From Spirochaetales bacterium (GTDB taxonomy: Bacteria > Spirochaetota > Spirochaetia > SZUA-6 > JAFGRV01): a stretch of 43,085 nt of DNA. Both the position numbers and the translations under genes were made by a program. Position 1 is the first letter of the stretch. Each line of letters begins with the position of its first letter. Location: assembly GCA_016930085.1 (NCBI GenBank), contig JAFGHO010000015.1:1-43085 (forward strand), given 5' to 3'. Positions 17,119 through 35,764 of the stretch are shown one piece after another. Under the pieces are notes generated by a model, which saw nothing but the letters and a program-made list of their open reading frames with translations, did not search any database and was not told where the DNA came from.

Positions 17119-17311
17119 GGACTATCGTATACCGATTTACGACAATTGTCAAACCGGCGAATCGCCGGTTTGACCTGCCGCATCGAATGAATGCGCGGGG
17201 GCGGCATAAAACCACATTAATTGGCCCGAAAATCTCATTAATCGGAGTTAAAATTGAATGCGAAAATGCCCCGGAAGGTGTCATAATGAAAGAAAAAGCA
17301 AGGAGGAACCA

Positions 17312-18427
17312 ATGAAAGGAATTGTGAAACGAATATGGTTCATATTAATGGTGCTTGCAGGCATTGTCGTGTATCCGTACGCCCAGTCCCCGGGCGATGT
17401 CAATAATGACGGGACCGTCACTATTGTCGACGCGTTGCTTGTTGCCCAGTATTATGTCGGGCTTAATCCGGCTGTGTTTTCTCTTGATGCGGCGGATGTG
17501 AACTGCGATTCTGCGATAAATATCGTGGACGCCCTGCTTGTCGCGCAGTATTACGTTGGGCTGGTTGACGAATTCCCCTGTTCCGCCACGCCTGTGCCCA
17601 CATTGCCCCCCGGGGGGACGGAGGTCGATGTGTTCGGTATCACGATGTTCTATCCGACCCTCACCTCGTCCCTCGGCTGGGATTCCCGTCACTGGGACAA
17701 TGGTATCGAGAGAACGCTTTCCAACGATATCATGAGCGGGAACGATCCTGAAGACCCGACATTCTGGTCCGAATACCGCGGAAGCGGGGTGCTTACCATC
17801 GATGGCAGGGGCATGCTGACCATGGGCGGCAGCCAGCCGCGGATCTATATTAATCCGTATCCGGGGACGGAGGAAACGAATCCGGAGATGTTTTTCAAGA
17901 ACGTGGAAGTGACCGTTTACTACATGAGAATAGGAACCGACGGCGCGAACTGGGGAGGGTGTGTTATCGGTGTGAGAAGCGGGCCGAACGGCCATTCGAG
18001 CTGGGGTGACTACTGCGACGCGACCACCTATTACGCGCGCCTCAGACATGACGGGAATGTCGATTTTTACAAGGAACTGAAGCATCCGGACGGCGATTAC
18101 GTGATGCACCATGAGTACTGGGGCGGGGATCCCCTTCCATCCAGCCGGTGGATCGGGGTCAAGGTCTGCGCGTACAATATATCGGGCGATTCCGAGGTAA
18201 AGCTGGAAATGTACATCGACAAAACAAGCGGGGGAGCGAACGGGGGGGTATGGGAAAAGGCGATCGAGTATATCGACGACGGATCGTGGACGGTTCCTGC
18301 GTCCGGTTGTCCCTACCCCGAAAACATGCCGATTACCGAAGGCGGCGGGGTGGTCATGATCAGGAACACCGACGCGGCGGAGGCCCGGTACAAGATGTTT
18401 TCCGTTCGGGAGATCAATGTGCGGTAG
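17312..18427 (+). CDS. Secreted dockerin-bearing protein, probably polysaccharide-active
   Basis: The 371-residue product has a signal peptide (about 1-24, cleaved near YAQS). A type I dockerin follows, made of two calcium-binding loop-helix repeats ([20 protein letters not shown] and [20 protein letters not shown], about 28-85), then a Pro/Thr linker (about 90-102). The C-terminal domain of about 265 residues is rich in Trp, Tyr and Gly and looks like a jelly-roll beta-sandwich as in polysaccharide lyases or LamG-type domains; I cannot name its family. Start 17312 was chosen for AAGGAGG at 17300-17306. It is divergent from the membrane AraC regulator and convergent with a pectate lyase carrying the same dockerin. 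Confidence 0.82.
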   Translation: MKGIVKRIWFILMVLAGIVVYPYAQSPGDVNNDGTVTIVDALLVAQYYVGLNPAVFSLDAADVNCDSAINIVDALLVAQYYVGLVDEFPCSATPVPTLPPGGTEVDVFGITMFYPTLTSSLGWDSRHWDNGIERTLSNDIMSGNDPEDPTFWSEYRGSGVLTIDGRGMLTMGGSQPRIYINPYPGTEETNPEMFFKNVEVTVYYMRIGTDGANWGGCVIGVRSGPNGHSSWGDYCDATTYYARLRHDGNVDFYKELKHPDGDYVMHHEYWGGDPLPSSRWIGVKVCAYNISGDSEVKLEMYIDKTSGGANGGVWEKAIEYIDDGSWTVPASGCPYPENMPITEGGGVVMIRNTDAAEARYKMFSVREINVR

Positions 18428-18581: not shown

Positions 18582-19775
18582 CTATATTTTCCCGACACCC
18601 GCATTCCCGGTCACGATCGATGTTACCTGATCCGTCGAATGCAGCTGGTAGCTGTACGGCGGATTGAAGGTGCATGTCGATGAGGTCGGCCGGCTGCCGG
18701 TGCAGTTGATGAACCGGTTGTCCCTTACATCCCAATACCCCGTCGAGTCGCTGTCCCAGTATCCGATGGGATCGTCTGCGGACTCGAAAACGTTGTTTTC
18801 GATTCTGAGCTGCGCACCCTGCCTGCAGTTGATCCCCGTCGTCGCGATATTGATGTAATAGTTGTTGTAAATGTGCCCCGTTCCGAAACGGTAGGACGGC
18901 AGGCGTGAATTGCAGTCCGCGAAATAGTTGTGGTGGTAGGTGATCTTTCTGTCATAGTCGTCGCTGTCCGACGAGCCGACGAGCGACGTCTTGTATGAAT
19001 GGTGGCAGTAATTCCAGGAAAAGGTGATGTATTCGCTTTCCGCCTTGGCGTCGAAAAGACCGTCATAGTAGTCCTTGTCGTGGTCGAGATCGTTGTACAA
19101 CTCGCAGTGATCGATCCAGACATGATCGGAGGGTCCCTCGATCCCGATACAGTCCTTGTCGCCGATGTCGACATGGTGGATGCGGAGGTTTCTGATAATG
19201 ATATTGCCGGCGCGCCATACCTTTATCCCGATCCCGTTGAGTTCCCCGCTTGTTCCGACACCGATGATTGAAATGTCTCTGACATCCTTGATGTCGATTT
19301 TCGAAAGGCCGCTTGAATTGGATTCGGTAATGGTCCCGTTGACATAGATGACACGGGGGCCGCCCGCTTTGATCGCGTTCTGGAGGTCCGTCCCTGTGTT
19401 GACCGTCACCGAGGGGCCGCCCGCGCCGCCTGTCGTTCCCCCGTTCAGTGTCGCGAAACCGACGAGGCTCGAATCGATCTGGCCCGGAGGAGAGGTGGGT
19501 GTCGGACTTTCGCAGGGAAAGGACGAAATAAGCCCCACGTAATATTGGGCGACGAGCAACGCATCGACAATATTGATGCCGCCCTCACAATTGACGTCGG
19601 CGCTGCCCGCATTGAATCCACCCGGATTGAGGCCCACGTAATGTTGAGCGATGAGAAGGGCATCGACGATGTCGATACTCGAATTCCCGTTGACATCGCC
19701 CATGGTCTGGGCCGGAAGTGAAAGTACTCCCGTGATTATAAAAACAAAGACAATTAAAAAAAGCCGTTTATTCAT
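18582..19775 (-). CDS. Secreted PL1-family pectate lyase with N-terminal dockerin
   Basis: This 397-residue enzyme cleaves polygalacturonate by beta-elimination outside the cell. A signal peptide (1-22) is followed by a two-repeat dockerin ([40 protein letters not shown]; about 26-85), a Pro/Ser/Thr linker, and a PL1 right-handed beta-helix (about 105-397). PL1 landmarks are [10 protein letters not shown], the calcium-binding [18 protein letters not shown], and the catalytic-arginine segment [17 protein letters not shown] (R-x-P-x-x-R-x-G). AAGGAG precedes the start. The dockerin implies tethering to a cohesin partner or another calcium-dependent interaction; no cohesin gene is in the window. 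Confidence 0.93.
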
Positions 19776-21244: not shown

Positions 21245-22618
21245 ATGAAAAAAAAACATTATGCAACAATTGTCCTGGTTGCGGCGGTTATGTTGTTTTG
21301 GGCCGCTTCGTGTACACCACCGGAAGAATCCAATAAAGGGCTTCAGGAGGGGGATCCGATCGGTAACGGATTTGTCGTTACCTATATCGACGACGGGGGC
21401 GGTTATGAGGCCGAAGGAACGATCGGCGGTGAAACACTCGTCAAGGTGATAGGAACCTTTACCTCGGACAGGGTCTGGACGGCGGACAAAATATGGTTTT
21501 TGGCGGGCTCGGTCTTTATCGGAAATGATTCAGCTTCATCGGCGGCAACACTTACCATCGAAGCGGGGACGGAGGTCAGGGGCATCAACGATATCACACC
21601 CGGACTCCTTGTCATTACAAGGCATTCCAGGATCGAAGCCGTCGGTACTGCGGATAATCCGATCATTTTCACGTCTGCTCAGGCACCGGGCTACCGTGCT
21701 TCGGGCGACTGGGGCGGGCTCGTCATCAACGGCAGGGCGCCGACCAATGAAGGGATGAACGTCGAGGGCGAAGGTGCCTCAGGATTATACGGCGGCGATG
21801 TCGAAGACGACGATTCCGGAACGCTCCGATATGTCCGGGTCGAGTTTGCAGGCCGGATCTTTACCACCGAAAACGAACTGAACGGTATCGCCTTTCAGGG
21901 AGTCGGTTCCGGAACCGAAGTCGACTATATCCAGGTCCACCAGAACAAGGACGACGGTGTCGAGTTCTTCGGCGGAACAGTCTCGGTCAGCCATGTCGTC
22001 ATTACCGGGGCGCAGGATGATTCACTCGACTGGACATCGGGCTGGAGGGGAACAGCACAGTATGTCATTCTTCAGCAATACCCGGGTGCGGGCGACAATG
22101 GGATCGAAGCAGACAACCTGAACGCGGAGTACACGAGAACCCCCGTTTCCGATCCGACACTTTCTAATTTTACCATTGTGGCCAACAGCGATACATCGGC
22201 GCGGGGAATACTTTTTAGAAGGGGAACAAAAGCGCGGGTCCTCAATTCGGTGATACAGGGGTATACCGGATCCATACGGCAGGACAACGCGGACGCGGAT
22301 GAGGTGATTTTCCGGGGTGTGTGCGCCGATACGGTTCCGTATGCCGACGGAGTGACGGCGGCCGATCTCTCAGCCGATGCCTCGAACGATGTACCGGGGA
22401 CGACCAATCTTCCCGCGGGTGCAGTTGCAAGCCTGGCCGGCGGCGAATATTCCTTTAACATGGTGCCCGATGACGATCCGAGTGCGGACGCGTACGATAT
22501 TACGACGATTACACCGCTATTCGGGGCGCTTGATTCTTCGGGCGCCGGTTTTGTCGGCGCGATCGACCCGGACGGGACCGACTGGTCCGCGGGCTGGATA
22601 ACCACCGCCGAAAGATAA
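21245..22618 (+). CDS. Surface lipoprotein with predicted beta-helix fold
   Basis: The 457-residue protein has a signal peptide with lipobox A-A-S-C (Cys23). The rest carries beta-helix rungs: LTIEAGTEVRG, LVITRHSRIEAVGTADNPIIFTSA, WGGLVINGRAP, LRYVRVEFAG, VDYIQVHQNKDDGVEFFGGTVSVSHVVITGAQDDSLDWTSGW. This family is often encoded beside TonB-dependent receptors in Bacteroidetes and Proteobacteria. It opens the TonB locus, with AGGAGG upstream. A strong hairpin (22654-22683) lies between it and the next gene, so it may be expressed at a different level. Likely role: outer-membrane-associated substrate capture or a receptor accessory; this is inference from context. Confidence 0.82.
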   Translation: MKKKHYATIVLVAAVMLFWAASCTPPEESNKGLQEGDPIGNGFVVTYIDDGGGYEAEGTIGGETLVKVIGTFTSDRVWTADKIWFLAGSVFIGNDSASSAATLTIEAGTEVRGINDITPGLLVITRHSRIEAVGTADNPIIFTSAQAPGYRASGDWGGLVINGRAPTNEGMNVEGEGASGLYGGDVEDDDSGTLRYVRVEFAGRIFTTENELNGIAFQGVGSGTEVDYIQVHQNKDDGVEFFGGTVSVSHVVITGAQDDSLDWTSGWRGTAQYVILQQYPGAGDNGIEADNLNAEYTRTPVSDPTLSNFTIVANSDTSARGILFRRGTKARVLNSVIQGYTGSIRQDNADADEVIFRGVCADTVPYADGVTAADLSADASNDVPGTTNLPAGAVASLAGGEYSFNMVPDDDPSADAYDITTITPLFGALDSSGAGFVGAIDPDGTDWSAGWITTAER

Positions 22619-22653
22619 TTTTCCGGATTAGGGATAAACGATCAGTATCAATG

Positions 22654-22683
22654 CCGCAGTGCCGGATCAATCCGGTACTGCGG
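22654..22683 (+). terminator. Strong hairpin between lipoprotein and DUF3450 genes
   Basis: CCGCAGTGCCGGAT (22654-22667) pairs with ATCCGGTACTGCGG (22670-22683); one pair is G-T and the loop is only CA. A weak ATTATTT follows. It may be a partial terminator or an mRNA-stabilising stem that makes the lipoprotein transcript more abundant than the downstream genes. Confidence 0.6.
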
Positions 22684-22705
22684 ATTATTTGTCAAGGAGA
22701 GGAAG

Positions 22706-23494
22706 ATGATTTCCATTGAAAACCGTAGCAACAACAAAAAAAAGACTTTTATACTCGTCATTATTATTTTCGGGGCCGTGTTTCTTTTAGGCCAGACAAC
22801 CGACAGCGCCCTTGAAAATCTTGCCGCCGAAATCGCTTCAAAACGGGCTGAAGTGGAAGCGCTTTCGGCGAAGCTTGAAAACAAAAAAGCGGATTATAAT
22901 GAACGACTCAGATCCCTCTCGATACAACACGCGGATATGGAAGCCAGGATAAAACGTGAAAATTTACGGCTTGCGCAATACGAACGGGAACTTAATGAAT
23001 ACAGAAAAAGCAATTCCGAAGCAGGCGGGTCGCAGGATTTTCTCAAACAGCTCGCCGGTCGTGTTCTTTTGAGAATACGGGCTTATATAAATGAAAGCCT
23101 CCCCTTTCAGAAGGAGGAAAGGATTTCCGAGATCGATACGTTTGAAAACCTGCTTGTAGGCGGAAATCTCGACGAGGCGGCAATTTTGGCCCGTCTGTGG
23201 AATTTCGTCGAATCCGAGTTTCGCCTTGCCACCGAAAGCGGGATTTACCGCCAGGTGATCGAACGGGGGGAGGAAACATTTCTTGCGGAAGTGATCAGAT
23301 TGGGATTCGTATTTCTTTACTACAGGACCCGGGATAATGAATACGGCTATGCGGTAAAGGAGGGCGGCGCTTGGAAGTTTACATCGGTACGGAATGAGGA
23401 AGAAAAAGACCAGATCGATCGATTGTATGACGCCCTCAGGAAAAACATACGCGAAGGCCGTTTTACTATCCCTTATCCGGGAAAGGATTTGTGA
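22706..23494 (+). CDS. DUF3450 periplasmic coiled-coil protein of TonB system
   Basis: This 262-residue protein has an N-terminal signal anchor (about 12-32). A long coiled coil follows (about 32-100, LAAEIASKRAEVEALSAKLENKK), then a globular helical part with SLPFQKEERISEIDTFENLL and VIRLGFVFLYYRTRDNEYGYAV. This is the DUF3450 pattern. DUF3450 genes typically sit directly upstream of the long MotA/TolQ/ExbB (TtpC-like) gene in TonB2-type clusters, exactly as here. The gap to the next gene is one base. It probably assembles with the motor in the periplasm; the exact role is unknown. Confidence 0.85.
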   Translation: MISIENRSNNKKKTFILVIIIFGAVFLLGQTTDSALENLAAEIASKRAEVEALSAKLENKKADYNERLRSLSIQHADMEARIKRENLRLAQYERELNEYRKSNSEAGGSQDFLKQLAGRVLLRIRAYINESLPFQKEERISEIDTFENLLVGGNLDEAAILARLWNFVESEFRLATESGIYRQVIERGEETFLAEVIRLGFVFLYYRTRDNEYGYAVKEGGAWKFTSVRNEEEKDQIDRLYDALRKNIREGRFTIPYPGKDL

Positions 23495-23495
23495 A

Positions 23496-25031
23496 ATGAA
23501 AGCGACGAGAAGATTATTTTGCCATTCAGGATGTGCGTCTTTACCCTGTAGAGAGGGAAAGCCGGTATACGACATGTTCTTATTATACATGAGTATCATA
23601 GTAATCCTTTCTATGATGGTGCCGTCTTTTAAGGTATTTGCCCAGGAAACCAATAGCGGTGTTGATCCTTTTTTTGCGGCGTACCAGAAAGAGTTTGTTT
23701 TTCTCGATAATGAAATTCGAATCCTCAACAAGAGAATTCGGGAAGTCGAGCGGGAAGGCGCGCAAAGGATCGCGGATGCGGAAGAACGGCTTCTGTCACT
23801 CGATGCGGAACTTCTCGATCTTACTTCCCGCATCGACAGACGAATCGAAGAAAGAAGGGTCGTTGAAGCGGCGATGGAAAAAGCCGATGATACCGCCGCG
23901 ATGACAGCATCGATTATCAATCAGGGAAATCAACGGTTATCGAAAAACGGGATTACGCCCTATCAAAAGAATTCCGCTATCACGGAATCCGAACAAATGG
24001 AGGCTGAACTCGACCATGTATTTGAAAAATCCATCGAAATTCTGGGATTATACGGGAAAATCGGTACGGTGCCCGGTGTTTTCTTCATGAAGGACGGAAA
24101 AGAAGCGAACGGCGAGATTGTCAATATCGGCCGTATCGCATGCTACGGAATAAGCGGAGAAACGGGCGGTACACTCGCCCCGATAGGAGGGGGAAATCTC
24201 AGCCTCATCGACGAAAAAACCGCTCCACTTGCTAAAAAACTTGCCGAAGGCGCTGTTCCGTCCTCGCTTCCTGTTTTTCTTTATGAATCGCTCGAAAAAC
24301 CGGCACAGTCGTTCGGGCAGCATAAAACGATACTCGACACGATAAAGGGAGGCGGTATTATCGGATTAACTATCATTGTTATCGGCTGCGCCGCTTTCTT
24401 TCTTATTATAGTCAGGACATTTCTTCTTTTTCAAACGGGAAGAAGTAATACGGCGATTCTCGGAAAACTCATGAATGATGTCGAGAATGGTTCCATGATA
24501 GGGGCGCTGGCGTATGCGGAAAAACTTCCCGGTGCAATCGGGAGGGTTCTCGCCGACACATTGGGGGGGATCATTGAAAAATGCGTCAATATCGAAGATA
24601 TCGTGTCCGAAAGCATACTCAATGAACAAAAACGGCTTACCGCTTTCAGATCGGCCATCACCGTGTTCGCGGCAGTGGCGCCCCTTCTGGGCCTTCTGGG
24701 TACGGTCACCGGAATGATTTCGACATTCGAAGTCATCACCCAATTCGGGACCGGAGATCCGAAACTGCTTTCGGGCGGGATTTCCGAAGCCCTTATAACG
24801 ACGGAATTCGGTCTCATGGTGGCGATACCGGTTCTTCTCTTCGGTAACCTTCTCACATCCCGGGCGGACAGGATCACGACGATACTCGAAGTCACCGCTT
24901 TACGGGTACTCAACATATCGGCGGGCCCGAACGACACCGGCGAATCCCGTGACGGTGAAACGTATTCGGACGGTGAATATAAACTCAGCGGCATCGATGA
25001 AGAGACCGATATGGTGCCCCAGGGGGTATGA
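23496..25031 (+). CDS. TtpC-like long MotA/TolQ/ExbB proton-channel protein
   Basis: The 511-residue protein has a signal or anchor segment (about 27-50) and a periplasmic coiled coil (about 65-135). A beta-rich domain follows (about 180-270, MKDGKEANGEIVNIGRIACYG), then three transmembrane helices at about 288-312, 386-410 and 432-455. The last two carry the MotA/TolQ/ExbB hallmarks APLLGLLGTVTGMI and ITTEFGLMVAIPVLL. The order matches Vibrio TtpC, an extra subunit required by TonB2 systems. Start 23496 was chosen for AAGGA upstream and its position next to the previous stop. A start at M27 is possible. The gene overlaps exbB by four bases. Confidence 0.88.
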   Translation: MKATRRLFCHSGCASLPCREGKPVYDMFLLYMSIIVILSMMVPSFKVFAQETNSGVDPFFAAYQKEFVFLDNEIRILNKRIREVEREGAQRIADAEERLLSLDAELLDLTSRIDRRIEERRVVEAAMEKADDTAAMTASIINQGNQRLSKNGITPYQKNSAITESEQMEAELDHVFEKSIEILGLYGKIGTVPGVFFMKDGKEANGEIVNIGRIACYGISGETGGTLAPIGGGNLSLIDEKTAPLAKKLAEGAVPSSLPVFLYESLEKPAQSFGQHKTILDTIKGGGIIGLTIIVIGCAAFFLIIVRTFLLFQTGRSNTAILGKLMNDVENGSMIGALAYAEKLPGAIGRVLADTLGGIIEKCVNIEDIVSESILNEQKRLTAFRSAITVFAAVAPLLGLLGTVTGMISTFEVITQFGTGDPKLLSGGISEALITTEFGLMVAIPVLLFGNLLTSRADRITTILEVTALRVLNISAGPNDTGESRDGETYSDGEYKLSGIDEETDMVPQGV

Positions 25032-25645
25032 TCGTGTTCGAGTTGTTAGATGAATGTGTGTCCTACATGGCGCAGGGAGGATTCGTGATGTGGCCGCTTC
25101 TCGTGTGTACTGTAATGTTGTGGTATTCACTCGGCTACCGTTTCGTTCATCTGAAGCGAGGCGCGAAAGAAGACGTGAGGACGCTTGCAGGACGGTTCTG
25201 TCCGGGGGAAAATGAGATTTCCGACGGATATATCCGGGAAGCCGTTGCCGCCGCGCACCGTGTTTGGGCGTCAAACCTCGGAAGCGTAAACATTCACGGC
25301 AGGCTTGACGATGCTTTTTCCCCGATTCTCGAATCAATGTCGCGTTACCGCGGTATCATCCACTCGGTTGTTATAATCGCACCCCTTCTCGGCCTGCTCG
25401 GTACCGTGACGGGGATGATCGAAATGTTCGATTCACTCGCCGAACAGACGTTTTATTCTCAAACGGGAGGAGTGGCGAACGGCATCGCCGAGGCGTTGTT
25501 TACGACACAGTTCGGGCTTCTTATCGCCATACCGGGATTGATCGCCGGACGAATTCTGGACCGGCGGGAAGACCGGATGAAGAAAGAACTCGTGCAGATA
25601 AAAGATATATTCGCGGCAGGAAAAATCAAAGGAGGCATGGCGTGA
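25028..25645 (+). CDS. exbB: ExbB proton-channel subunit
   Basis: This 205-residue inner-membrane protein is the short MotA/TolQ/ExbB partner. The first helix is about 15-35 (GGFVMWPLLVCTVMLWYSLGY). The paired helices carry IIAPLLGLLGTVTGMIEMF and FTTQFGLLIAIPGLIAG, with the conserved Thr/Pro channel residues. With ExbD it forms the proton channel that powers TonB. Its ATG overlaps the previous stop (ATGA), indicating translational coupling. The presence of both this and the TtpC-like protein is typical of TonB2-type systems. Confidence 0.9.
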   Translation: MIVFELLDECVSYMAQGGFVMWPLLVCTVMLWYSLGYRFVHLKRGAKEDVRTLAGRFCPGENEISDGYIREAVAAAHRVWASNLGSVNIHGRLDDAFSPILESMSRYRGIIHSVVIIAPLLGLLGTVTGMIEMFDSLAEQTFYSQTGGVANGIAEALFTTQFGLLIAIPGLIAGRILDRREDRMKKELVQIKDIFAAGKIKGGMA

Positions 25646-26040
25646 AATTTTTACCGAAAAAACATGAACCGCAGGACCTGAATATATCGCCGTTAATCGA
25701 CATGGTATTTCTGCTTATCATTTTCTTCGCGGTTTCATCGACGTTTGTCAAGGACATGAAAATCGATATCAACCGTCCGCAGGCAAAAAACTCCGTTTTG
25801 GCATCGACGAAATCGGTCAGGATATACCTGGACAGGGACGGTGTTCCGTACATGAACGATCAACCGGTAAAAATGTGGATGCTGCAATCGATGGTCCGTG
25901 AAGCCATGGATACCTCTACATCCAGATCGGTACTTGTCGTCGCCGACAGACTGACGGCAACGGAAAAGCTCGTCGAAGTCGTCGACCAGGCGAAACTCGG
26001 CGGAGCCGATGAAGTCGGTGTCGCGACCGAAGCCAGATAA
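25642..26040 (+). CDS. exbD: ExbD proton-channel subunit
   Basis: The 132-residue protein has a short cytoplasmic tail, one transmembrane helix (about 17-38, PLIDMVFLLIIFFAVSSTFV) with the proton-carrying Asp20, and a periplasmic domain (about 45-132). DRLTATEKLVEVVDQAKLGGADEVGVAT is typical of ExbD/TolR. It starts with GTG at 25642, overlapping the exbB stop by four bases (GTGA), with GGAGG at 25631-25635. It works with ExbB and TonB from this operon. Confidence 0.92.
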   Translation: MKFLPKKHEPQDLNISPLIDMVFLLIIFFAVSSTFVKDMKIDINRPQAKNSVLASTKSVRIYLDRDGVPYMNDQPVKMWMLQSMVREAMDTSTSRSVLVVADRLTATEKLVEVVDQAKLGGADEVGVATEAR

Positions 26041-26057
26041 CCGGGGAATATCGATTA

Positions 26058-26702
26058 ATGAAGACCACGATTACAGCTTCGATGAAAAGAAAGGCGGCTG
26101 TTCTATTGATAACGGCGGGCGGTTCAATCGCCGTATTCGGAAGCGTCTTCCTTCTGAACCGGATAATCGTATCACATGATGAATTGAATACGGAAAGGCA
26201 TGTCGTTTTTACCGTCGAACAACAGAAACAGAAGATCGAACCTCCGAGAAGAATGGAAAACAGACAAAAACGGGAGCCCCGGGAGGATATTTCACTCGCA
26301 CCGGTCCCGCGTTTTGAGGGAAACCTGTCGGATATTTCCGTCGAACTGCCAACATTTTCCACGCAAGCAATGCAGTCTCTCGCGGAATCACTACTCGGTG
26401 ATCTCGACGATGTTGTTATGACAGAGGAAACAGTCGACGAGAAACCTGTCCCGAAACAGAGGGCGATCGTATATCCCGAACGCGCGAAGCAGATGAAAAT
26501 AGAAGGGGAGGTTGTCGTAAGCGCTCTCATCGGTATCGACGGACGGATCAAGAAAATGAAGATTCTGGAATCCCGTCCCGCCGGGGTTTTCGACAATGTG
26601 GTTCGTGAAATGATACCGTCCTGGACATTCGAGCCTGCGAAATACAAGAATCGAAATGTTCAGCTGTGGGTTACCATCCCGATAAAATTCAATCTCAATT
26701 GA
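26058..26702 (+). CDS. tonB: TonB energy transducer
   Basis: This 214-residue protein has one transmembrane helix (about 11-33) and a short periplasmic spacer that lacks the long Pro-Lys/Pro-Glu repeats of classical TonB. The C-terminal TonB domain spans about 142-214: YPERAKQMKIEGEVVVSALI, IDGRIKKMKILES, MIPSWTFEPAKYKNRNVQLWVTIPIKF. The short, proline-poor spacer is characteristic of TonB2-type proteins, which are thought to need the extra TtpC-like subunit to span the periplasm. It transmits the proton motive force to an outer-membrane receptor, most simply the one encoded at 27938-31222. Confidence 0.92.
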   Translation: MKTTITASMKRKAAVLLITAGGSIAVFGSVFLLNRIIVSHDELNTERHVVFTVEQQKQKIEPPRRMENRQKREPREDISLAPVPRFEGNLSDISVELPTFSTQAMQSLAESLLGDLDDVVMTEETVDEKPVPKQRAIVYPERAKQMKIEGEVVVSALIGIDGRIKKMKILESRPAGVFDNVVREMIPSWTFEPAKYKNRNVQLWVTIPIKFNLN

Positions 26703-26717
26703 GTTACGCTCACGGAT

Positions 26718-27926
26718 ATGAAAGGAATGTATGTGGAAACACGGGTTAAAAATAGAATCATCATTTTTTTGTTGTTCATCATTCAGCAAGCGGCTTTTCC
26801 TCTTGGTACCGGAGAACAAGAAGAGGGAGATTTTTCCGATATCGAATCAATGAATAATGAAATAGATTATCTGAGTATCGCCGCTGTCATGATTCGCGAC
26901 GGAAGATACGCCAAGGCCGAATCACTTCTCGAAAAGGTGAATCCCGATACGCCCGGCATCGATATGGGGCTTTATTTCACGGTACGCGGTCTCGTTTTTC
27001 TCAATAAATCACTTTTTACAGAAGCGTTGAGTGATTTTAAAAGCGCATTCTCTCACGGTAGACAGCATCCCGTCATTAATGCCTACATGGCCCAGGCGTA
27101 TTACGGGCTCGAGGATTACCGGAACGCGCTTCTTTCAATCGAAAAAACAGGCAATATCAACATGTATCCGGACCTGGTTGGGATGAGAATTCAGTGTCAC
27201 TGGAACCTGAAAGAAAGGATTGCGGCATTCGAAACGCTCGGCCGGGCAATAACACTCTTCCCGTCCAACAACCGGTTTCACCTGCAACGTATATCGTTTC
27301 TTCTGGAACTCAATCTGACACGGGAGGCGGCATTCCAGGCAAAAAAATACCTTGTACAGTTCGGAGATAAAAGTGAAGCATATATGACGATCGGGGAAGC
27401 ACTGAGGCGCGGCGGTGAAACCGACTCCGCCATACGGGTCCTCGAAACGGCGAAACTCAAATTTGCGGAGGATTCCAGGATCGGACTGGCGTTAGCCGGT
27501 ATCTATTTAAGGGAAAACCGGTTTCAAACAGCGGCGAAACTCGTCGAAGAGGTTGCGATATACGATAGAGAATTTTATCCGGAAGCCGCCGAACTCTATC
27601 GCAGGGCGGGCGATTTTGACAGGGCGCTTTATCTCAACAGATACATCTCCGACCAGCGTCTAAAAGCGGAACAACGTTTTACGCTTTTTCTTGAAACCGG
27701 AAAATTCGAAGAGGCACTGGCACTCGAGGAAAGGCTTCAAAGACTCGGACTCCTCGACGATAATCGGATGCGTTACGCTGTCGCGTATGCTTTTTTTCAA
27801 ATACAGCTTTATGATAAGGCACTTTCCTGTCTTTCGGCAATCACGGATGAAGATTATTTCACGGAAGCGGTAAAACTTCGCAAGGCGATCGAAATCCTAA
27901 AATCAAAATCCGTTCAACTATTTTAA
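26718..27926 (+). CDS. TPR-repeat periplasmic protein of TonB locus
   Basis: The 402-residue protein starts with a signal sequence (about 10-32, ending FPLG) followed by an acidic segment GTGEQEEGDF. At least nine TPR-like helix pairs fill about 50-390, for example AEAYFTVRGLVFL-type LYFTVRGLVFLNKSLFTEALSDF and EAYMTIGEALRRGGETDSAIRVL. TPR proteins are the usual last member of DUF3450-ExbB-ExbB-ExbD-TonB clusters. It probably scaffolds the complex in the periplasm. Fifteen bases separate it from tonB and eleven from the receptor gene. The ribosome binding site is weak; translation may be coupled. Confidence 0.85.
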   Translation: MKGMYVETRVKNRIIIFLLFIIQQAAFPLGTGEQEEGDFSDIESMNNEIDYLSIAAVMIRDGRYAKAESLLEKVNPDTPGIDMGLYFTVRGLVFLNKSLFTEALSDFKSAFSHGRQHPVINAYMAQAYYGLEDYRNALLSIEKTGNINMYPDLVGMRIQCHWNLKERIAAFETLGRAITLFPSNNRFHLQRISFLLELNLTREAAFQAKKYLVQFGDKSEAYMTIGEALRRGGETDSAIRVLETAKLKFAEDSRIGLALAGIYLRENRFQTAAKLVEEVAIYDREFYPEAAELYRRAGDFDRALYLNRYISDQRLKAEQRFTLFLETGKFEEALALEERLQRLGLLDDNRMRYAVAYAFFQIQLYDKALSCLSAITDEDYFTEAVKLRKAIEILKSKSVQLF

Positions 27927-27937
27927 GGAAGCCGAAT

Positions 27938-30900
27938 ATGCTCAGGCAATCGAGATTTTTATTCATCATCTTGTTCTTCTGTTTAGGTTTCTCCGGCTGG
28001 AGCGGAGATATTTCGGGTGAAGTGCGGATGTATGTTTTTTCGGATGAAGGGCTTCCGATCGAGGGTGCCATTGCCGAAACCGGAAACATGATATATTCAT
28101 CGAATAAAGGCGGATACATCGGATTTTTCCATGAACCGGGAGTAATCGATATCAAAATGATATATAAGGAAAGCGGGATAACGGATTTGACCGTCGAGGT
28201 CCGGGAAAACCAGATTACCGAGATCATTGTGACTATATCAAAGAAGGATAAAGGTGGATATGTTGTAAATATCGGTTATAGTGAATCGGTAACAGTAGAT
28301 AAAATCGCGGCTTTAGATGACGATATCGATTCGCCGGACGGTGAAACAGGTGTTACGGATATGGGGTTTCTATCAGGAAAGGTGAGCCATATCGAGACGG
28401 GAAAGCCTGTTGTGGGGGCGACGATAATTTTTCGGGGGCTTGGAAGTGAATTCAAAACCGATGCATCCGGATCGTTCATCGCGGAATTGCCTTCAGGAAC
28501 CTATGCCCTTTCGGTCATTCATGCCGATTTTTCTACCCAGACCATTGTGGCGATTAATATCAGGCCCAATGAGGGAACGGAGGTCATTGTTGAATTGACA
28601 CCCTCGGCAATGGAACTCGATGAGGTACCGGTTTTCGCGACGGTCGAGGTACAATCGCAGGGCGGAATCGCGAGTCTTCTCGAAGAAACAAAAAACTCGG
28701 CGGTCCTTCTCAACCTTATCGGGGTGGAACAAATATCGAAGATGGGGGATTCCGATGCAGCCTCGGCACTGAGCCGCGTAACCGGACTTACGATTCTGGA
28801 TGGAAGATTCGTGTATGTCCGTGGAATGGGGGAACGTTATTCCTCATCTTATCTCAACGGCGGTTATCTTCCGAGTCCGGAAATAGACAAACGTGTGGTA
28901 CCGCTCGATCTTTTCCCTATGGTGATTATCGAGAGTATCGCGGTACAGAAGGCATATTCGCCCGATCTTTTGGGAGATTTCAGCGGCGGGGCCGTCATGG
29001 TCAGAACAAACGGCATTCCCGACGACAGGTACAGGAGGAGGCTGCGTTCGACGATCAAAATGTCGCTTGGCTTTGATCCGGAAAAAACCTTCATCGAAGC
29101 CATGAGTGAAGTGCCCGGCGGTCTGGACTGGCTAGGGATCGATGACGGGAAGAGAAAACTCCCCTATGAAGTCGCTGAAAAGGACAAGGTTATCCTTGGT
29201 TCTGAAGTAAGCGGCGGCCTGGGACCGGAGGAAATTGAAGCCCTCGGGGAAATCATGCCCAAGACGTGGATGGCGGAAAAAAGGCTTTTATTGCCGGATT
29301 ACGGTATTGCCGCGACGTTAAGTGATAAAATAGAAATCTCACGTGAATCGAATCTCGGTTACAATATGGCATTTATTTACAAGAATTCCTCGGATTTACA
29401 GACGGAGAGAAGCGAGAAACAAATCATCTATAATGAAAATACGGGAGAATACTTTATTAACTATGATTACACAGCCGACACGACTACCCTGGAAACGGAT
29501 ATCTGTGGAATGATCGATGTTATTGTCGATATAAACAACATCCTTGGTATTGAACTCTCGACACTGCTTGTCCGGCTTACCGATGCAACGACGGAACAGT
29601 ATGAGGGATATTATTCGGATGACGATGAGTATATCCGTGTGACAGATCAGTCATGGATCGAACAAACGCTTTTTTATCAACGGCTCGCGGGAAGCTGCAC
29701 GTTTTCATCGCTCAATGAATCGATGATCGCATGGCAGTATAACTACTCGTGCGCGAGCCGCTACGAACCGGATCACAGGACGACGAGATATGATTCCCAG
29801 GACGGAGACGTTTACCGGCTTTCCGACCGCCCTGAGGGTTCAAGAAGGGTATATGTCAATGTCGTCGATCATATTCATGACGGATCACTCTCATGGCTTC
29901 TTCCAGTCTCGATTTTTTCGAAAAGCCCTTCCGATTTTATCGAATTCGGCGCGCAGGGGCTGTATAGAAGCCGTACAAATGATTCGAGAAAGTTAATTTT
30001 CGCGTTCAGCGAGGCGAATGTGCCAGGGGATGTCCTCGAGCAGGATGTGGATGAAATATTTACCGATGAATATATCGGTGAATATTTCAATCTTCAGGAA
30101 ACGACACTCACGACAGACAACTATACATCATACGGTATTATTTTCGCCGGATATATCTCCCTCGATATGCTTCTTTTCAAACACCTCAGATGCAATGTCG
30201 GCTCGCGTTTCGAGTACGGCGAACAGGTTGTCGATACCTTTAATCTTTACACGAACAATCCGCAGCGGGTCGTTCTCCGGACGTTCGATATCCTGCCGTC
30301 GATAAATCTGACCCTCCCGTTTTTGTCAGTTTACCAGGCGCGTCTCTGCGCAAGCAAGACACTGAACAGACCCGATTTTCACGAGATGTCGAACGCGATA
30401 AAGGATTTGTATGCCGGTGAAGGTCAGATCATCGGGAATACCGAATTGGGAAAAGCAGATATTTATAACGTCGATTTCGCTGTCGAAGCATATCCCTCCG
30501 AGAAGGAAAGCCTTTCTCTTGGTGTTTTTTACAAGTATTTTGTGAATCCCATCGAGGAAGTCGCTCTGGTCAAGGCCGGGTCCACAAGGCTTTATTCCTG
30601 GATCAACACCCCTTCCGCCTATAATATCGGTGTCGAGTTCGAATGGAAATTGACCTTTGCCGCTGTTGCGGATTTGATTCGTATGTCCCTCGATGCACAT
30701 CATTATGAATCATTCGAGGAGGAAAGAAAAACCCGTGTTTTCTGGGGTTCCGTCGGCGGTTTTTTTCGCGATCTCTACACGGCGGGAAACGTATCCTTCA
30801 TCGCATCGGAAGTTTCTTATCCGGGAAATTATTTTACTGATCCTGAAAACGAGATCAGAAACACTTCGCAGAAACGTCCGCTTCAGGGACAGTCTCCCTA

Positions 30901-31222
30901 TGTGATCAATGTATCGTTGGGTTACGAAAACAGTGTCTCGTGGTCGAAATTCAGACCGATTAAAACCTCGATTTATCTTAACTACAACGTCTTCGGCCGG
31001 AGAATACTGAGTATAGGGACATGGGGGACGCCGGATCTCTATGAGGAACCATTCCACAGGCTCGATGTTGTCGCAAAACAGCAATGTAACGAGGTTGTTT
31101 CTGTGGAATTAAAGATGAAAAACCTGCTCGATCTTCCCGCCTACGAAGTCGTCGGCGACAGGGTGCAAAAAGAATACCGCAAGGGACGCCGGTTTGAGTT
31201 ATCCGTCACGATTTCGATGTAG
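27938..31222 (+). CDS. TonB-dependent outer-membrane receptor with two carboxypeptidase-regulatory-like domains
   Basis: This 1094-residue receptor has a signal peptide (1-23) and two Ig-like carboxypeptidase-regulatory folds at about 24-105 and 145-228 (GKVSHIETGKPVVGATIIFRG, FKTDASGSFIAELPSGTYALS). A TonB-box-like DEVPVFATVEV lies at about 228-240. The plug spans about 245-355 (SDAASALSRVTGLTILDGRFVYVRGMGERYSSSYLNG, FSGGAVMVRTNG). A beta-barrel of about 740 residues ends in RRFELSVTISM-type strand GRRFELSVTIS. The final residue is Met, not the usual Phe. It would import a substrate too large or scarce for porins. It is flanked by its own energising complex and a PstS-like binding protein. 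The substrate is not known. Confidence 0.92.
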   Translation: MLRQSRFLFIILFFCLGFSGWSGDISGEVRMYVFSDEGLPIEGAIAETGNMIYSSNKGGYIGFFHEPGVIDIKMIYKESGITDLTVEVRENQITEIIVTISKKDKGGYVVNIGYSESVTVDKIAALDDDIDSPDGETGVTDMGFLSGKVSHIETGKPVVGATIIFRGLGSEFKTDASGSFIAELPSGTYALSVIHADFSTQTIVAINIRPNEGTEVIVELTPSAMELDEVPVFATVEVQSQGGIASLLEETKNSAVLLNLIGVEQISKMGDSDAASALSRVTGLTILDGRFVYVRGMGERYSSSYLNGGYLPSPEIDKRVVPLDLFPMVIIESIAVQKAYSPDLLGDFSGGAVMVRTNGIPDDRYRRRLRSTIKMSLGFDPEKTFIEAMSEVPGGLDWLGIDDGKRKLPYEVAEKDKVILGSEVSGGLGPEEIEALGEIMPKTWMAEKRLLLPDYGIAATLSDKIEISRESNLGYNMAFIYKNSSDLQTERSEKQIIYNENTGEYFINYDYTADTTTLETDICGMIDVIVDINNILGIELSTLLVRLTDATTEQYEGYYSDDDEYIRVTDQSWIEQTLFYQRLAGSCTFSSLNESMIAWQYNYSCASRYEPDHRTTRYDSQDGDVYRLSDRPEGSRRVYVNVVDHIHDGSLSWLLPVSIFSKSPSDFIEFGAQGLYRSRTNDSRKLIFAFSEANVPGDVLEQDVDEIFTDEYIGEYFNLQETTLTTDNYTSYGIIFAGYISLDMLLFKHLRCNVGSRFEYGEQVVDTFNLYTNNPQRVVLRTFDILPSINLTLPFLSVYQARLCASKTLNRPDFHEMSNAIKDLYAGEGQIIGNTELGKADIYNVDFAVEAYPSEKESLSLGVFYKYFVNPIEEVALVKAGSTRLYSWINTPSAYNIGVEFEWKLTFAAVADLIRMSLDAHHYESFEEERKTRVFWGSVGGFFRDLYTAGNVSFIASEVSYPGNYFTDPENEIRNTSQKRPLQGQSPYVINVSLGYENSVSWSKFRPIKTSIYLNYNVFGRRILSIGTWGTPDLYEEPFHRLDVVAKQQCNEVVSVELKMKNLLDLPAYEVVGDRVQKEYRKGRRFELSVTISM

Positions 31223-31323
31223 ATTGAATGAATCCGGGGCGGCGTACTTGTATAAAAGGCTATTGATGATCGTTTGAGATCGATAAAAAATACTTGGAGG
31301 ATGATTCAGCAAAGGAGTGAAGC

Positions 31324-32166
31324 ATGAAACGGATAACTGCCATCGTCATGATGCTTTTCGTATGTATCGATGTATTTTGTTTCGGAACAAAAGAACAAGA
31401 TCCGTGCGGAGTGATGCGTTTATGCATCGGGGGATCCTCGACCATGAGATGGATTTTTGAGAGGGCTTTCGACGTATATAAGGAAATAGACGAACATGCG
31501 GAATTTCATTATGATTTTCCCGGTTCGGGGGCCGGTATACAGGGGGTGCTCTGCGGCACATATCACATCGCCGCCGTAAGCAGAGAACTTTACAAACAGG
31601 AAATACGCTACGGGCTCTGTGCGACAACAATCGCGATGGACGGAATCATGCTGATTGTGAAGGATTCCTTTCCGGTAGATGATATAACACTCGAGCAGGC
31701 GGCCGCCATTTTTACCGGAGAAATATCAAACTGGAGCAGGGTCGGCGGACCGGATCTGCCGATCGTACCGGTAAAAAACAAACCATGGAGCGATACGGAC
31801 CGTGCTTTTCTGGAACTTGTTCTTATGAGAGTATACGGCGACGACGCGCGTATTCGATGTGACGGTATACAGACGATGGGGAACCGTGGAATGATGAGGG
31901 CTGTTTCCAGGAACAGGAATTCCATCGGATACGCCCCCCTGTCCAAACTTCACAGCCTTCCCGACGAATGTTTGAAAGCGTTAAATATAAACGGCGTTGC
32001 TTTCACCCATGAGAATATTCTCAACAGAAAGTACCCGATCACGCGGCCGCTCAATATGGTGACGGTTGGAGAACCGTCAAGTGAAGCCGTGCTTTTTATC
32101 GATTTTCTTAGAAGCCCTGCAGGACAGCATATCGTCGATTTCTTCTGGTATTTACCGGTGCGTTAA
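31324..32166 (+). CDS. PstS-like phosphate-binding periplasmic protein
   Basis: The 280-residue protein has a signal peptide ending near FCFGTKEQ. A PstS/PBP-like domain follows: CIGGSSTMRWIFE (phosphate-loop Ser-Ser-Thr), DFPGSGAGIQGV, HIAAVSRELYKQE, LEQAAAIFTGEISNWSRVGG, SRNRNSIGYAPLS and a C-terminal LIDFLRSPAGQHIV. These are the normal PstS phosphate contacts and the substrate-binding-protein core. No Pst permease or ATPase genes follow; the gene closes the TonB locus, 101 bases after the receptor, with its own AAAGGAG. It may hand phosphate (or a related oxyanion) from the outer-membrane receptor to an inner-membrane transporter elsewhere. Confidence 0.87.
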   Translation: MKRITAIVMMLFVCIDVFCFGTKEQDPCGVMRLCIGGSSTMRWIFERAFDVYKEIDEHAEFHYDFPGSGAGIQGVLCGTYHIAAVSRELYKQEIRYGLCATTIAMDGIMLIVKDSFPVDDITLEQAAAIFTGEISNWSRVGGPDLPIVPVKNKPWSDTDRAFLELVLMRVYGDDARIRCDGIQTMGNRGMMRAVSRNRNSIGYAPLSKLHSLPDECLKALNINGVAFTHENILNRKYPITRPLNMVTVGEPSSEAVLFIDFLRSPAGQHIVDFFWYLPVR

Positions 32167-32207: not shown

Positions 32208-33044
32208 CTACATATACCTCGCCGGGATAAGGGTATCGCACAGTAAAAGGATATGCTTCAAATTCGAAGAAGCCTTTTCGGCTATGGTTACAGGAGTGCC
32301 TTTGAATTTTCCGATGTCCTGTATGCATTCGATGCCCCAGACCCCGTCGTATCCGCTTTCGTATATCGTTTTAATGTGGCGGCAAAAATCAATCTGCCCA
32401 TCGCCAAGTATGAGATGTTCATCGGTGATTCCGTGATTATCGTGGATATGAAGGGCGACAAGACGGGATAGAATATCCGTATAAAGAAAGACCGGCCACG
32501 ATCCGGAAATCTCGGCATGTCCCGTATCGAGGCATAATCCGATCTCGGAAAAGGCGTTGATCACATTGATTATTATATTGTTCATGTATGATTCAATGAG
32601 ATTTTCGAGGGCAAGATAAACGCCTGCTTTGTATGCCGCATCGAGCAGCAGTTCGACGGCATTTTTCAGCTGAAGCATTGACATATGAAGATTGTCGGGT
32701 ATCGCCGTAATAGTGTCGAAAGCATGAACGATGACCGAGCGGGCATTCAGCTTCCCGGCCAATGTGATTGTTTGAAGTATTTTGGCGATGGATTGTGTCC
32801 ATGTTTTCATATCTCTGGTATACAACCGGATGTTTCTGAACGGCGAATGAATCCAGTCGACAGAAAGGCGGTTTCGAATCAGCAGCCTTGAAAGCGCCGC
32901 GATTCTTTTTTCCCCGCAATGGATCAGATTTTCGGTAAGCCCGTCATCGATACTGATATGGGTAAATCCCGCGCCGGCGATCGCCTCGATCTTGTTCTCG
33001 AGTGATCCTTTGTTTGAGAATGCAGTGGTTATGGACAGCTTCAT
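32208..33044 (-). CDS. Xylose-isomerase-like TIM-barrel (sugar phosphate isomerase/epimerase family)
   Basis: This 278-residue protein has the AP-endonuclease-2/xylose-isomerase TIM-barrel pattern. Metal ligands are all visible: Glu in YLALENLIESY (about 147), Asp and His in LCLDTGHAE (about 171-175), His/Asp in ALHIHDNHG (about 198-204), and Glu in GVWGIECI (about 242). These usually bind one or two divalent metals. Family members isomerise or epimerise sugars and inositol compounds or cleave abasic DNA; the short length and context favour a sugar substrate. AGGAGG precedes the start. A second, more degenerate barrel is encoded at 36469-37230. Confidence 0.85.
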   Translation of the reverse strand: MKLSITTAFSNKGSLENKIEAIAGAGFTHISIDDGLTENLIHCGEKRIAALSRLLIRNRLSVDWIHSPFRNIRLYTRDMKTWTQSIAKILQTITLAGKLNARSVIVHAFDTITAIPDNLHMSMLQLKNAVELLLDAAYKAGVYLALENLIESYMNNIIINVINAFSEIGLCLDTGHAEISGSWPVFLYTDILSRLVALHIHDNHGITDEHLILGDGQIDFCRHIKTIYESGYDGVWGIECIQDIGKFKGTPVTIAEKASSNLKHILLLCDTLIPARYM

Positions 33045-33412: not shown

Positions 33413-33674
33413 GCTATAATGTTCACTGTATTGTTTTTAAAACAGGTTAGTTGTTCGTTAGGAAATGGTTATTTTTTCAAACATTTCTTAAAGCAATCCG
33501 AAATTCCTTATAATAATTATATTCGGATTGCTTTAGAAGCTTGCTTAAAAACAGACAAAGCTTTCTAATAATAAACTAACACTTAACACATATACATTCC
33601 AACTTAATATTTCATTTTTTTCCTAATCGTTACGTTTTGTTTAAGAAATTTCTGTAATTAAAAGAGGGGGAATA
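33413..33674. repeat. AT-rich intergenic stretch with 14-bp inverted repeat
   Basis: TAAAGCAATCCGAA (33489-33502) is perfectly repeated in inverse as TTCGGATTGCTTTA (33522-33535) around a 19-base AT-rich loop. There is no T-tract. It could be an operator, a weak terminator for the minus strand or a relic of a small mobile repeat. The rest holds no gene. Confidence 0.5.
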
Positions 33675-34293
33675 ATGGGACAATGTGAATGTATATTACT
33701 TGGCATTTTGATAATAGCAGTACTTCTGTTTTTGTTACCGGGATGCCATGTACAGTTATCGGAAGAAGAAATTCTGGTAATTCAAACGGAATCGATTTCC
33801 ATCGATACACCCGCGACAGTTTATTACGGCATGCTGCATAATCATTCCAATTATTCGGACGGGAAAGGAAGCCCGGATGATGCTTACCGTTATGCCAGGG
33901 ACACGGTGGGGCTTGATTTTTTTGGCCTTTCCGATCATGCAGAAAGGTTGACTGATAAGGAATGGAAATCCTTGATAAACACTGCCGGCCGTTACAATCA
34001 GGACGGTGTATTCGTCGCTTTTTCGGGATTCGAATGGTCGCACAATACTTATGGCCATGTTACAGTGACAAATACTGAAGATATCTGCAGGGCTAACGAG
34101 TCTGGTACCGATACGTTTTATGGTCTTGTCGGCTGGCTTGAAGAGAGAGGGCATAGCTTTTTTTAATCACCCCTGAGGCCGGAATTCAACAGGTGTCGAA
34201 TTCAACCACTTTATTTCACGTCCTTCAGAAAAGTTTGTCGGAATGGAGTTGTGGAATAAGAACAAAGGATTTGAGATATATTATTATAATAAT
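33675..34293 (+). pseudogene. PHP-domain lipoprotein, 5-prime part (frameshifted, split by IS)
   Basis: The frame opens with a lipoprotein signal (L-P-G-C, Cys24) and PHP metal motifs MLHNHSNYSDGKG and FGLSDHAE, then SGFEWSHNTYGH. It stops at 34164-34166 because of one extra T in a run of seven at 34158-34164. Shifted by one base it continues FNHP, meets an in-frame TGA (34174-34176), and goes on GRNSTGVEFNHFISRPSEKFVGMELW to YYYNN at 34293, where the insertion element begins. PHP-domain proteins are metal-dependent phosphoesterases or nucleases. An intact PHP gene is at 41159-41899. This copy is clearly dead. Confidence 0.88.
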
Positions 34294-34336: not shown

Positions 34337-35764
34337 ATGAGACAATTCATCATACCTAACCGCGAACAGCAGTTGCTGTTTGCGACTATAGATCTTGAAA
34401 GCATCGCTCCGATAGGAAGTCCTCTTCGAACGATTGATGCGCTTGTGGAATCACTCGACACAAGTTCAATTGAGGTTGAATATGACCTCGATTCGCCGAA
34501 TGGCCGCGAACCGATACATCCGAAGACACTCATAAAGGTTGCGCTTTACGCCATACACAATTGCCGTTTTTCACTCAGGAAAATCGAGCATGATACGACA
34601 GCATATTTAGGGTACCGCTAGCTGACGGGAGATGAAGGGATAGATCATTCAACGATGGGTAAATTTCTTTCGAGACACAAAGAAAGGATCGTGGAGCTGT
34701 TTTCACAGATAGTCGAAATTGGTATCGAAAAGGATCTGATTAATTTTGATGTGTTGGCGATCGACACCGTGAAGATACGCGCGAACGCATCATATAAACG
34801 ATTCAAGACACTCTCCGGAATGAAAGAAGAGCGAAGGAAAATAAGGGAAAGGATCAAGGAATTGATCGAGAAGACGGATGAAGAGAGTACGATTGAACAG
34901 GAAATGCTTGAAAAGCGTAAAGCAACGCTGGAAGCCGGTGTAAAAGCCCTCAAGAAACGTATTGAAGAAGAAGGAGCCGGGAGGACGGAAACGGAGAAGA
35001 ATAAGTTGGAAGAGAAGATGAAAATCAATATGATCGATTCTGATTGTTCTCTTCTGCAATAGGCAAACAAGGAAATCAATCCGGCATACAGCGTGACAAC
35101 AACGGCAGACAGCGGAAGCGATTTCATTATCCACTTTCAGGTGAACGACAGATGCAATGACGCTGAAGCGTTAATGGAAGCGGCAACCGGGAGTGAAGAG
35201 AAAGCCGGGGGACGACACAGGATAATAGTTGCGGATGCCGGATTTGCATCGATGGATAATTACGAGAAGCTGGATGAAGCCGAACAGGAAGCGCTGATAC
35301 CTGACAAACTGCTGGACGTCGAGATTCATAATAAAACCACAAAAGGAGAATATGACAGATCACGATTTCTATATGAGAAGAAGCAGGATCGCTATAAATG
35401 TCCGTGCGGGAAGCTGCTTGACAGGAAAGGCGATGTGAAGCAATCCGGTCGCTATTACGCTCGTTATGCGAATCTCGAAGCATGCAGGAAATGCCCTCAA
35501 CGGGCACTATGTACGAAGTCGTCTCACAGGGTTATATTACGTGATAAAAATGAAGAGGTGCGCGAGCGAATGAGAAAGAGGATGAAAAAGAAGCAAAACA
35601 AGAAAAGATATAAGCAGCGTTCGCATACCGTTGAATCACCATATGGTCAAATAAAACATAATCTGAAATACAGAATATTCATGAGAAGGGGAAAAGCAAA
35701 GGTGATGATGGAAGCGGCGCTCTTGTTCATGCTTCATAACATTATCAAAATCGGATCGAATTAA
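34337..35764 (+). pseudogene. IS1182-type DDE transposase with two in-frame amber stops
   Basis: A single frame of 476 codons runs without any frameshift but has TAG at 34619-34621 and at 35060-35062. The first lies in YR-stop-LTGDEGIDHSTMGKFLSRH, where Trp (TGG) is usual. The catalytic triad is present: D in VLAIDTVKIRANAS, D in IIVADAGFASM, and E in TVESPYGQIKHN. The N-terminal DUF772-type region and C-terminal LHNIIKIGS are also complete. Between the first two Asp residues lies a long charged helical insert. TAG is a genuine stop in many genes here, so this is best read as a recently inactivated transposase. Confidence 0.9.

Follow-up and report, generated by a model that had tools for sequence, protein, structure and literature searches.

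The usual view is that phosphate passes the outer membrane by diffusing through porins, and a cluster of nine genes in a Spirochaetales bacterium raises the question of whether phosphorus compounds may also be imported there by a powered system with its own motor. The cluster occupies positions 21245-32166 of contig JAFGHO010000015.1 (GenBank assembly GCA_016930085.1); the whole 43,085-nucleotide stretch was analyzed and is called the window below. It encodes, in this order, a beta-helix lipoprotein, a DUF3450 protein, a TtpC-like protein, ExbB, ExbD, TonB, a tetratricopeptide repeat (TPR) protein, a TonB-dependent receptor and a PstS-like binding protein. The original prediction, made from the letters of the sequence, described nine same-strand genes of these kinds forming a dedicated outer-membrane pump for phosphate, a phosphorylated polymer or an organophosphate. 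Each of the nine open reading frames (ORFs) was confirmed in place, on the + strand, and was assigned as predicted with Pfam and NCBIfam. Our reading is that the cluster is probably (at a probability of roughly 0.65) an importer of the outer membrane that serves under phosphate starvation, of the ElpS-CC0171 type known from Caulobacter crescentus, with a dedicated TonB2-type motor and with phosphate or an organophosphate as its substrate. We regard a powered importer linked to phosphate as likely on the strength of the neighboring genes in part of the relatives and of what is published on the ElpS and Pus systems; the PstS-like gene is not the main reason. Which of phosphate, a phosphorylated polymer and an organophosphate is carried cannot be told from the sequence.

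Conservation of the lipoprotein beside the receptor

Two sets of receptor relatives were compared: 80 named loci, which are the best 80 of at least 580 confirmed receptor matches and include Pseudomonadota, Myxococcota, Planctomycetota, Poribacteria and Acidobacteriota, and 20 receptor neighborhoods of the same phylum, taken from the 27 other genomes with a match. As controls, 20 other receptors were hand-picked from the matches listed for ten genomes of the phylum, each of these genomes having a match to the window receptor; in no control does the resemblance to that receptor extend beyond 95 residues. A lipoprotein gene was found near the receptor in 70 of the 80 named loci and in 17 of the 20 same-phylum loci, as against none of the 20 controls (17/20 vs. 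0/20, Fisher P 3e-8). The three misses within the phylum touch contig ends, and eight of the ten named loci without the lipoprotein are cut by a contig end on one side or on both; in the remaining two (L095 and L130), which have ample sequence to either side of the receptor, the gene is either truly absent or undetected. Judged by gene neighborhood, the receptor and the lipoprotein are a conserved pair, which supports the beta-helix lipoprotein as a partner of the receptor. The original prediction had been made to depend on both the PstS-like gene and the lipoprotein gene staying beside the receptor; the second does so, and the first only now and then. DUF3450 was found near the receptor in 23 of the 80 named loci, so not every relative has the motor set. 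In the window the motor genes stand between the lipoprotein and the receptor, whereas in many relatives the two adjoin. In 21 of 96 clustered neighborhoods (among them L038 6275-6766, L039 12808-13311, L047 12798-13334 and L101 14530-15081), the pair is accompanied by a small protein, about 160-200 residues long, which by eye looks like a lipoprotein.

The pair is also carried by named replicons, found among the 8 plasmid records examined of 21 with a lipoprotein match. The best plasmid match, Alteromonas macleodii pBGP9 (NZ_OX359244.1), has the gene set of the window together with phoB-phoR, in the order phoB-phoR-pstS-2OG-Fe(II) oxygenase-lipoprotein-receptor-DUF3450-TtpC-ExbB-ExbD-TonB-TPR. 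This correspondence is backed by BLAST, except for the DUF3450 and TPR genes (annotation only), and the lipoprotein is annotated as hypothetical. The pBGP9 cluster differs from the window in its gene order, in a lipoprotein ORF of 1356 residues and in a PstS that keeps the S-G-T loop. In the alphaproteobacteria Indioceanicola profundi and Sphingomonas parapaucimobilis, the lipoprotein and receptor genes are followed in a row by gspN and gspD of type II secretion.

Within its own lineage the cluster is patchy, because the receptor occurs in 2 of 61 genomes (its own and 60 relatives), namely in its own genome and in a sibling of the same family (G004), and because receptor matches were found in 28 of 296 sampled genomes of the phylum, its own included, most of them at about 30% identity. 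The genes ttpB-ttpC-exbB-exbD-tonB-ttpD, which stand all together in the window, have the same order in the sibling, where they are followed by the receptor as in the window; identities are about 50-70%. Because order and content recur in other genomes, the cluster is more than a chance assembly. The closest receptor relative among the named matches is a Spirochaetales metagenome-assembled genome, and no match to the receptor was found in the viral contigs searched.

Features of the lipoprotein

In an alignment of 39 lipoprotein sequences, Cys23 is invariant in all 39, and the invariant residues include D236, D237, E240, D258, D262 and E288. The protein is presumably located at the cell surface. 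Its AlphaFold model consists of stacked strands (mean pLDDT 78.6; 253 of 457 residues at or above 90), with residues 60-340 mostly near or above a pLDDT of 90. In pectate lyases, the cation sites are formed by acidic side chains stacked on one face. The invariant Asp and Glu residues of the lipoprotein are spaced about one coil apart, and this spacing suggests a similar stack of acidic side chains on one face.

The best solved matches of the lipoprotein are polysaccharide lyases and epimerases, namely the AlgG epimerase (E 3e-3) and the pectate lyase Pel9A, none of them at E ≤0.001. These matches would also suit a system that takes up a complex anionic polysaccharide or glycan as a carbon source, in which the pho link described below would reflect stress regulation or enzymes releasing phosphate from the polymers of cell walls. 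A dockerin-bearing pectate lyase is encoded nearby (18582-19775), one of two dockerin type I proteins of the window (the other at 17258-18427), and binding or hydrolysis of plant cell-wall molecules has been suggested for the related lipoproteins FI and FII of Flavobacterium johnsoniae (PMC8115612). The cluster itself, however, includes no glycan-degrading enzyme, and no sugar enzyme was found among those recurrent neighbor families that were identified, which are part of all families. We consider glycan import unlikely.

Linkage to phosphate genes in relatives

Clustering of the genes around the receptor showed recurrent response regulators, histidine kinases, PhoU and ABC ATPases. Phosphate genes were then counted in 98 neighborhoods (1.68 Mb in all), which do not include the sibling locus L073 or L147, a locus that shares its contig with L041. 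Above the NCBIfam cut-offs were PstB (L089), PhoU (L142 and L048), PhoB (L138), and PstS and PstC (L048); PhoB and PhoR of L048 fell below them. A call was treated as confident for PhoU, or for PhoB at ≥74% or PstB at ≥60% identity to representatives confirmed by NCBIfam, and weaker PhoB-like, PhoR-like and PstB-like matches in further loci were not counted. By this definition, phoB, phoU or pstB was found near the receptor in 10 of the 98 neighborhoods (L048, L089, L094, L109, L113, L118, L120, L128, L138 and L142). The gene phoU alone was near the receptor in 7 of 98, where about 0.4 would be expected at one copy per 4 Mb, an assumed rate applied to loci that are not independent. Among the 20 control loci, there were partial PhoB-like matches in three and weak PstB-like matches (≤29%) in four. 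When the Pho label is mapped on a tree of 101 receptor rows, at least 5 changes are required by a quick method, which indicates that the pho linkage arose or was lost several times.

The PstS-like protein

The PstS-like protein has phosphate-binding proteins as its closest solved relatives and scores 139.1 bits with TIGR02136, below the cut-off of 206.6. The S-G-T/S loop, which we take to be the phosphate-binding loop of known PstS structures, is altered: the anion-loop pattern R-x3-S-G-T/S reads S-D-T in the window protein and has no Arg. Among 20 other sequences compared (L065 left out), the Gly is present in 20 (as S-G-T or S-G-S) and the Arg four residues before the Ser in 19. The window protein retains Ser38, Thr40, Ser86, Arg87 and Asp106, which are invariant in a ten-sequence alignment. 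Because the loop is altered, it appears doubtful that this protein binds phosphate in the usual way.

PstS-like genes lie within about 10 kb of the pair in 5 of the 20 same-phylum loci (L038, L039, L046, L048 and L055) as against none of the 20 controls (P 0.047), and in the named set they occur in L109, L120 and L124. In the sibling genome, a TIM-barrel gene stands directly behind the receptor with no PstS gene between, and PstS is encoded elsewhere; thus, the PstS-like gene is not a fixed part of the cluster. The counterpart of this TIM-barrel gene in the window, which comes after the PstS-like gene (32208-33044, - strand; AP_endonuc_2, with the CbiR model below its cut-off), has 55% identity to it. 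The PstS-like gene could be an unrelated passenger beside a functional unit formed by the remaining genes, to which we give somewhat less than an even chance and which is compatible with the importer reading. Both its absence behind the sibling receptor and the altered loop fit a passenger; on the other side, PstS-like genes without an adjacent permease stand near the receptor in L038, L039, L046, L055 and pBGP9. The original prediction, which argued for phosphate from this protein, can thus be kept as regards energized uptake at the outer membrane, probably tied to phosphate, and loses the PstS-like gene as its basis. As predicted, no Pst permease was found among the window proteins scanned.

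Comparison with published systems

In C. crescentus, phosphate starvation leads to production of the surface lipoprotein ElpS (CC0170), and homologues of elpS and cc0171 co-occur (PMC2996285). The likeness lies in a surface lipoprotein encoded beside a TonB-dependent receptor, and the window pair, with its lipobox, agrees with this. In Caulobacter, cc0170-cc0171 precede type II secretion genes, as in the alphaproteobacterial relatives of the window pair; in the window, in contrast, none of the proteins scanned belongs to type II secretion, and a TonB2-type motor of its own and a PstS-like protein are added. TonB receptors belong to the Caulobacter PhoB regulon (PMC11208175). In F. johnsoniae, FI and FII are induced by depletion of inorganic phosphate (Pi) and clustered with receptors, FII also with phoBR, and they have 31-36% identity over 50-54% to the Caulobacter lipoprotein (PMC8115612). 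These systems, PUSIII and PUSIV (FI and FII with the receptors Fjoh_3857 and Fjoh_0545), resemble the cluster in combining a pectate-lyase-like lipoprotein with a PF13715 receptor, and they are strongly induced by Pi depletion, and PUSIV has phoBR; compared by description only, they differ in that no DUF3450 or TtpC motor genes appear in that description. No SusD domain was found among the cluster proteins with Pfam, which places the cluster outside PusCD/SusCD systems. An active outer-membrane route, presented as notable in the original prediction, has published precedents under phosphate starvation in ElpS-CC0171 (PMC2996285) and in the Flavobacterium receptor-lipoprotein and PusCD systems (PMC8115612).

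The motor resembles the TonB2 system of Vibrio vulnificus, in which TtpB (DUF3450), TtpC, ExbB, ExbD, TonB and the TPR protein TtpD are encoded together, and in which all six TonB2 proteins are essential, TtpB2 being the DUF3450 protein (PMC6957404). That system serves iron-siderophore uptake, and its operon runs from ttpB2 to ttpD2 with no lipoprotein partner. Since the same six genes form an iron-regulated operon in V. vulnificus (PMC6957404), the cluster might be a metal or siderophore uptake system of the Vibrio kind. This is very unlikely in our view: the receptor clade travels with the lipoprotein, and the Flavobacterium receptors are induced under Pi depletion only, nitrogen and iron limitation tightly repressing unknown phosphorus-responsive loci (PMC8115612). 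No DUF3450/TtpC motor joined to phosphate was found in the open-licence papers searched, and two further papers (PMC2536512 and PMC12872454) had no bearing on the cluster in the portions available. The single elements are thus already known, and no description of a motor belonging to an ElpS-type pair was found in the portions of these papers available to us.

Evidence against a phosphate role and the search for Pho boxes

Several observations weigh against a phosphate importer of the ElpS-CC0171 kind. In Caulobacter, expression of cc0171 was alike in rich and poor medium; deletion of elpS left phosphatase activity unchanged and overexpression raised it; ElpS is probably not the phosphatase; and no phosphate uptake is shown for ElpS-CC0171 in the available text (PMC2996285). 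Furthermore, the likeness of the window lipoprotein to CC0170 is one of gene layout, as shared by alphaproteobacterial relatives of the window pair. The lipoprotein was found in 1 of the 61 genomes, its own, and nowhere in the sibling genome, which is 87% complete and whose cluster contig stops at DUF3450, the very place where the gene is to be expected. Beside a Marinobacter relative of the lipoprotein no receptor is encoded, and four Pseudoalteromonas megaplasmids have the module with no pho genes in the region shown, one of them listing no DUF3450. In 88 of the 98 neighborhoods there was no confident phoB, phoU or pstB; the enrichment of 10/98 over 0/20 controls has a P of 0.21 with a control set that is too small, and within the phylum phoU was found in 1 of 20 loci vs. 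0 of 20 controls.

The search for Pho boxes points the same way. We built a Pho motif from 13 PstS-gene promoters of related genomes, which consists of direct CTAACA repeats with 11-base spacing. With the first form of the motif, the best site upstream of 21245 was at -93 with 10.1 bits (95% of plain shuffles gave <8.7), and with a 12-site matrix, from which the L063 site (9.4 bits) was dropped, it was at -408 and scored 9.3 bits (shuffling P 0.042); the two forms thus disagree on the site. The pst sites used in the matrix score 13 to 22 bits, a self-test. A Pho box before 21245, which the original prediction had proposed looking for, is therefore not clearly present, the sites there being weak candidates. 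The cluster may be under phosphate control in this organism. The best motif site of the window is a stronger one at 33564 (14.3 bits, P 0.003), about 95 bases before a short, truncated-looking DUF3604 gene (33675-34166), which is followed by a transposase gene (DDE_Tnp_1_6, 35093-35764). Matches to the TGTCA pattern, as in E. coli, numbered 21 against a chance mean of 25.7, and this pattern was rejected as a candidate.

Proposed mechanism and genome context

In the importer proposed here, the surface lipoprotein would bind an anionic phosphorus compound or polymer, perhaps via a divalent cation held by the invariant Asp and Glu residues, and the receptor would bring the ligand across the outer membrane. 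The proton motive force would be converted by TtpC, ExbB and ExbD into pulling by TonB, and by analogy to V. vulnificus the DUF3450 (TtpB) and TPR (TtpD) proteins would be needed accessories. Phosphate reaching the periplasm would pass to the genome's own Pst system, and the PstS-like protein may have been recruited as a partner in the periplasm, having probably lost the usual mode of phosphate binding. The assembly (5.36 Mb, 135 contigs, 95.95% complete, the window being one contig) has one PstB at E ≤ 1e-70, on contig C34, followed by phoU, phoB and phoR as read by eye; a second PstS-type gene, on the same contig and about 14 kb away, keeps the usual anion loop. In the genome, a Plug domain occurs in two receptors, and TonB_C in three genes. 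The second receptor and a TonB_C gene about 4 kb from it lie on contig C66 (28583-33176), in agreement with the description of the locus as self-contained, and the third TonB_C gene is at C131 17700-17906.

A bolder proposal, which we put forward tentatively, is that phosphate-regulated outer-membrane pumps form a class that spans phyla. Each would unite an ElpS-like beta-helix lipoprotein and a receptor with a TtpB-TtpC-ExbB-ExbD-TonB-TtpD motor of its own into one unit that actively imports phosphate or an organophosphate, and in the spirochaete the PstS partner would have been repurposed for another ligand or for handing over the cargo. If a lipoprotein-receptor unit with its own motor is indeed widespread, many diderm bacteria would pay energy for phosphorus at the cell surface, and the Alteromonas and Caulobacter copies make this energy cost testable in culture.

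Gene content of the cluster and neighboring genes

The features of the cluster are summarized in the table below. Across it, Pfam assigned DUF3450, MotA_ExbB (twice), ExbD, TonB_C, TPR, CarbopepD_reg_2 with Plug and the TonB_dep_Rec barrel, and PBP_like_2. In NCBIfam, the receptor scores 152.8 bits with TIGR01782, below the cut-off of 310. The tight spacing described in the original prediction holds for five of the eight junctions: TtpC/ExbB and ExbB/ExbD overlap by 4 bases, and the gaps are 17 bases between ExbD and TonB, 15 between TonB and TPR, and 11 between TPR and the receptor. It does not hold for the other three, with gaps of 87 bases between the lipoprotein and DUF3450, about 79 between DUF3450 and TtpC (from a start picked by eye) and 101 between the receptor and PstS.

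Table. Features of the gene cluster and their coordinates in the window
Feature	Coordinates	Strand	Remarks
ElpS-like beta-helix surface lipoprotein (putative)	21245..22618	+	457 aa; lipobox AASC (by eye); sub-threshold Pfam Beta_helix match
Stem-loop, 13 pairs, possible attenuator	22654..22683	+	Between lipoprotein and DUF3450 genes; consensus scan only
DUF3450 protein, TtpB-like	22706..23494	+	PF11932 E 2e-23
TtpC-like long MotA/TolQ/ExbB protein	23574..25031	+	PF01618 E 3e-29; start picked by eye (listed ORF start 23394)
ExbB	25028..25645	+	PF01618 E 9e-24
ExbD	25642..26040	+	PF02472 E 1e-25
TonB	26058..26702	+	PF03544 E 1e-19
TPR protein, TtpD-like	26718..27926	+	Several TPR families
TonB-dependent receptor, CarboxypepD_reg-like N-terminal domain	27938..31222	+	1094 aa; PF13715, PF07715, PF00593
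PstS-like periplasmic binding protein, altered anion loop	31324..32166	+	PF12849 E 9e-26

The stem-loop could allow an excess production of the lipoprotein. This is only an idea, because such sites are about as frequent in the region as in shuffles (20 vs. 15.2 in a consensus scan). Elsewhere in the window, a 1479-residue protein with RTX calcium-binding repeats is encoded at 10237-14676 on the - strand.

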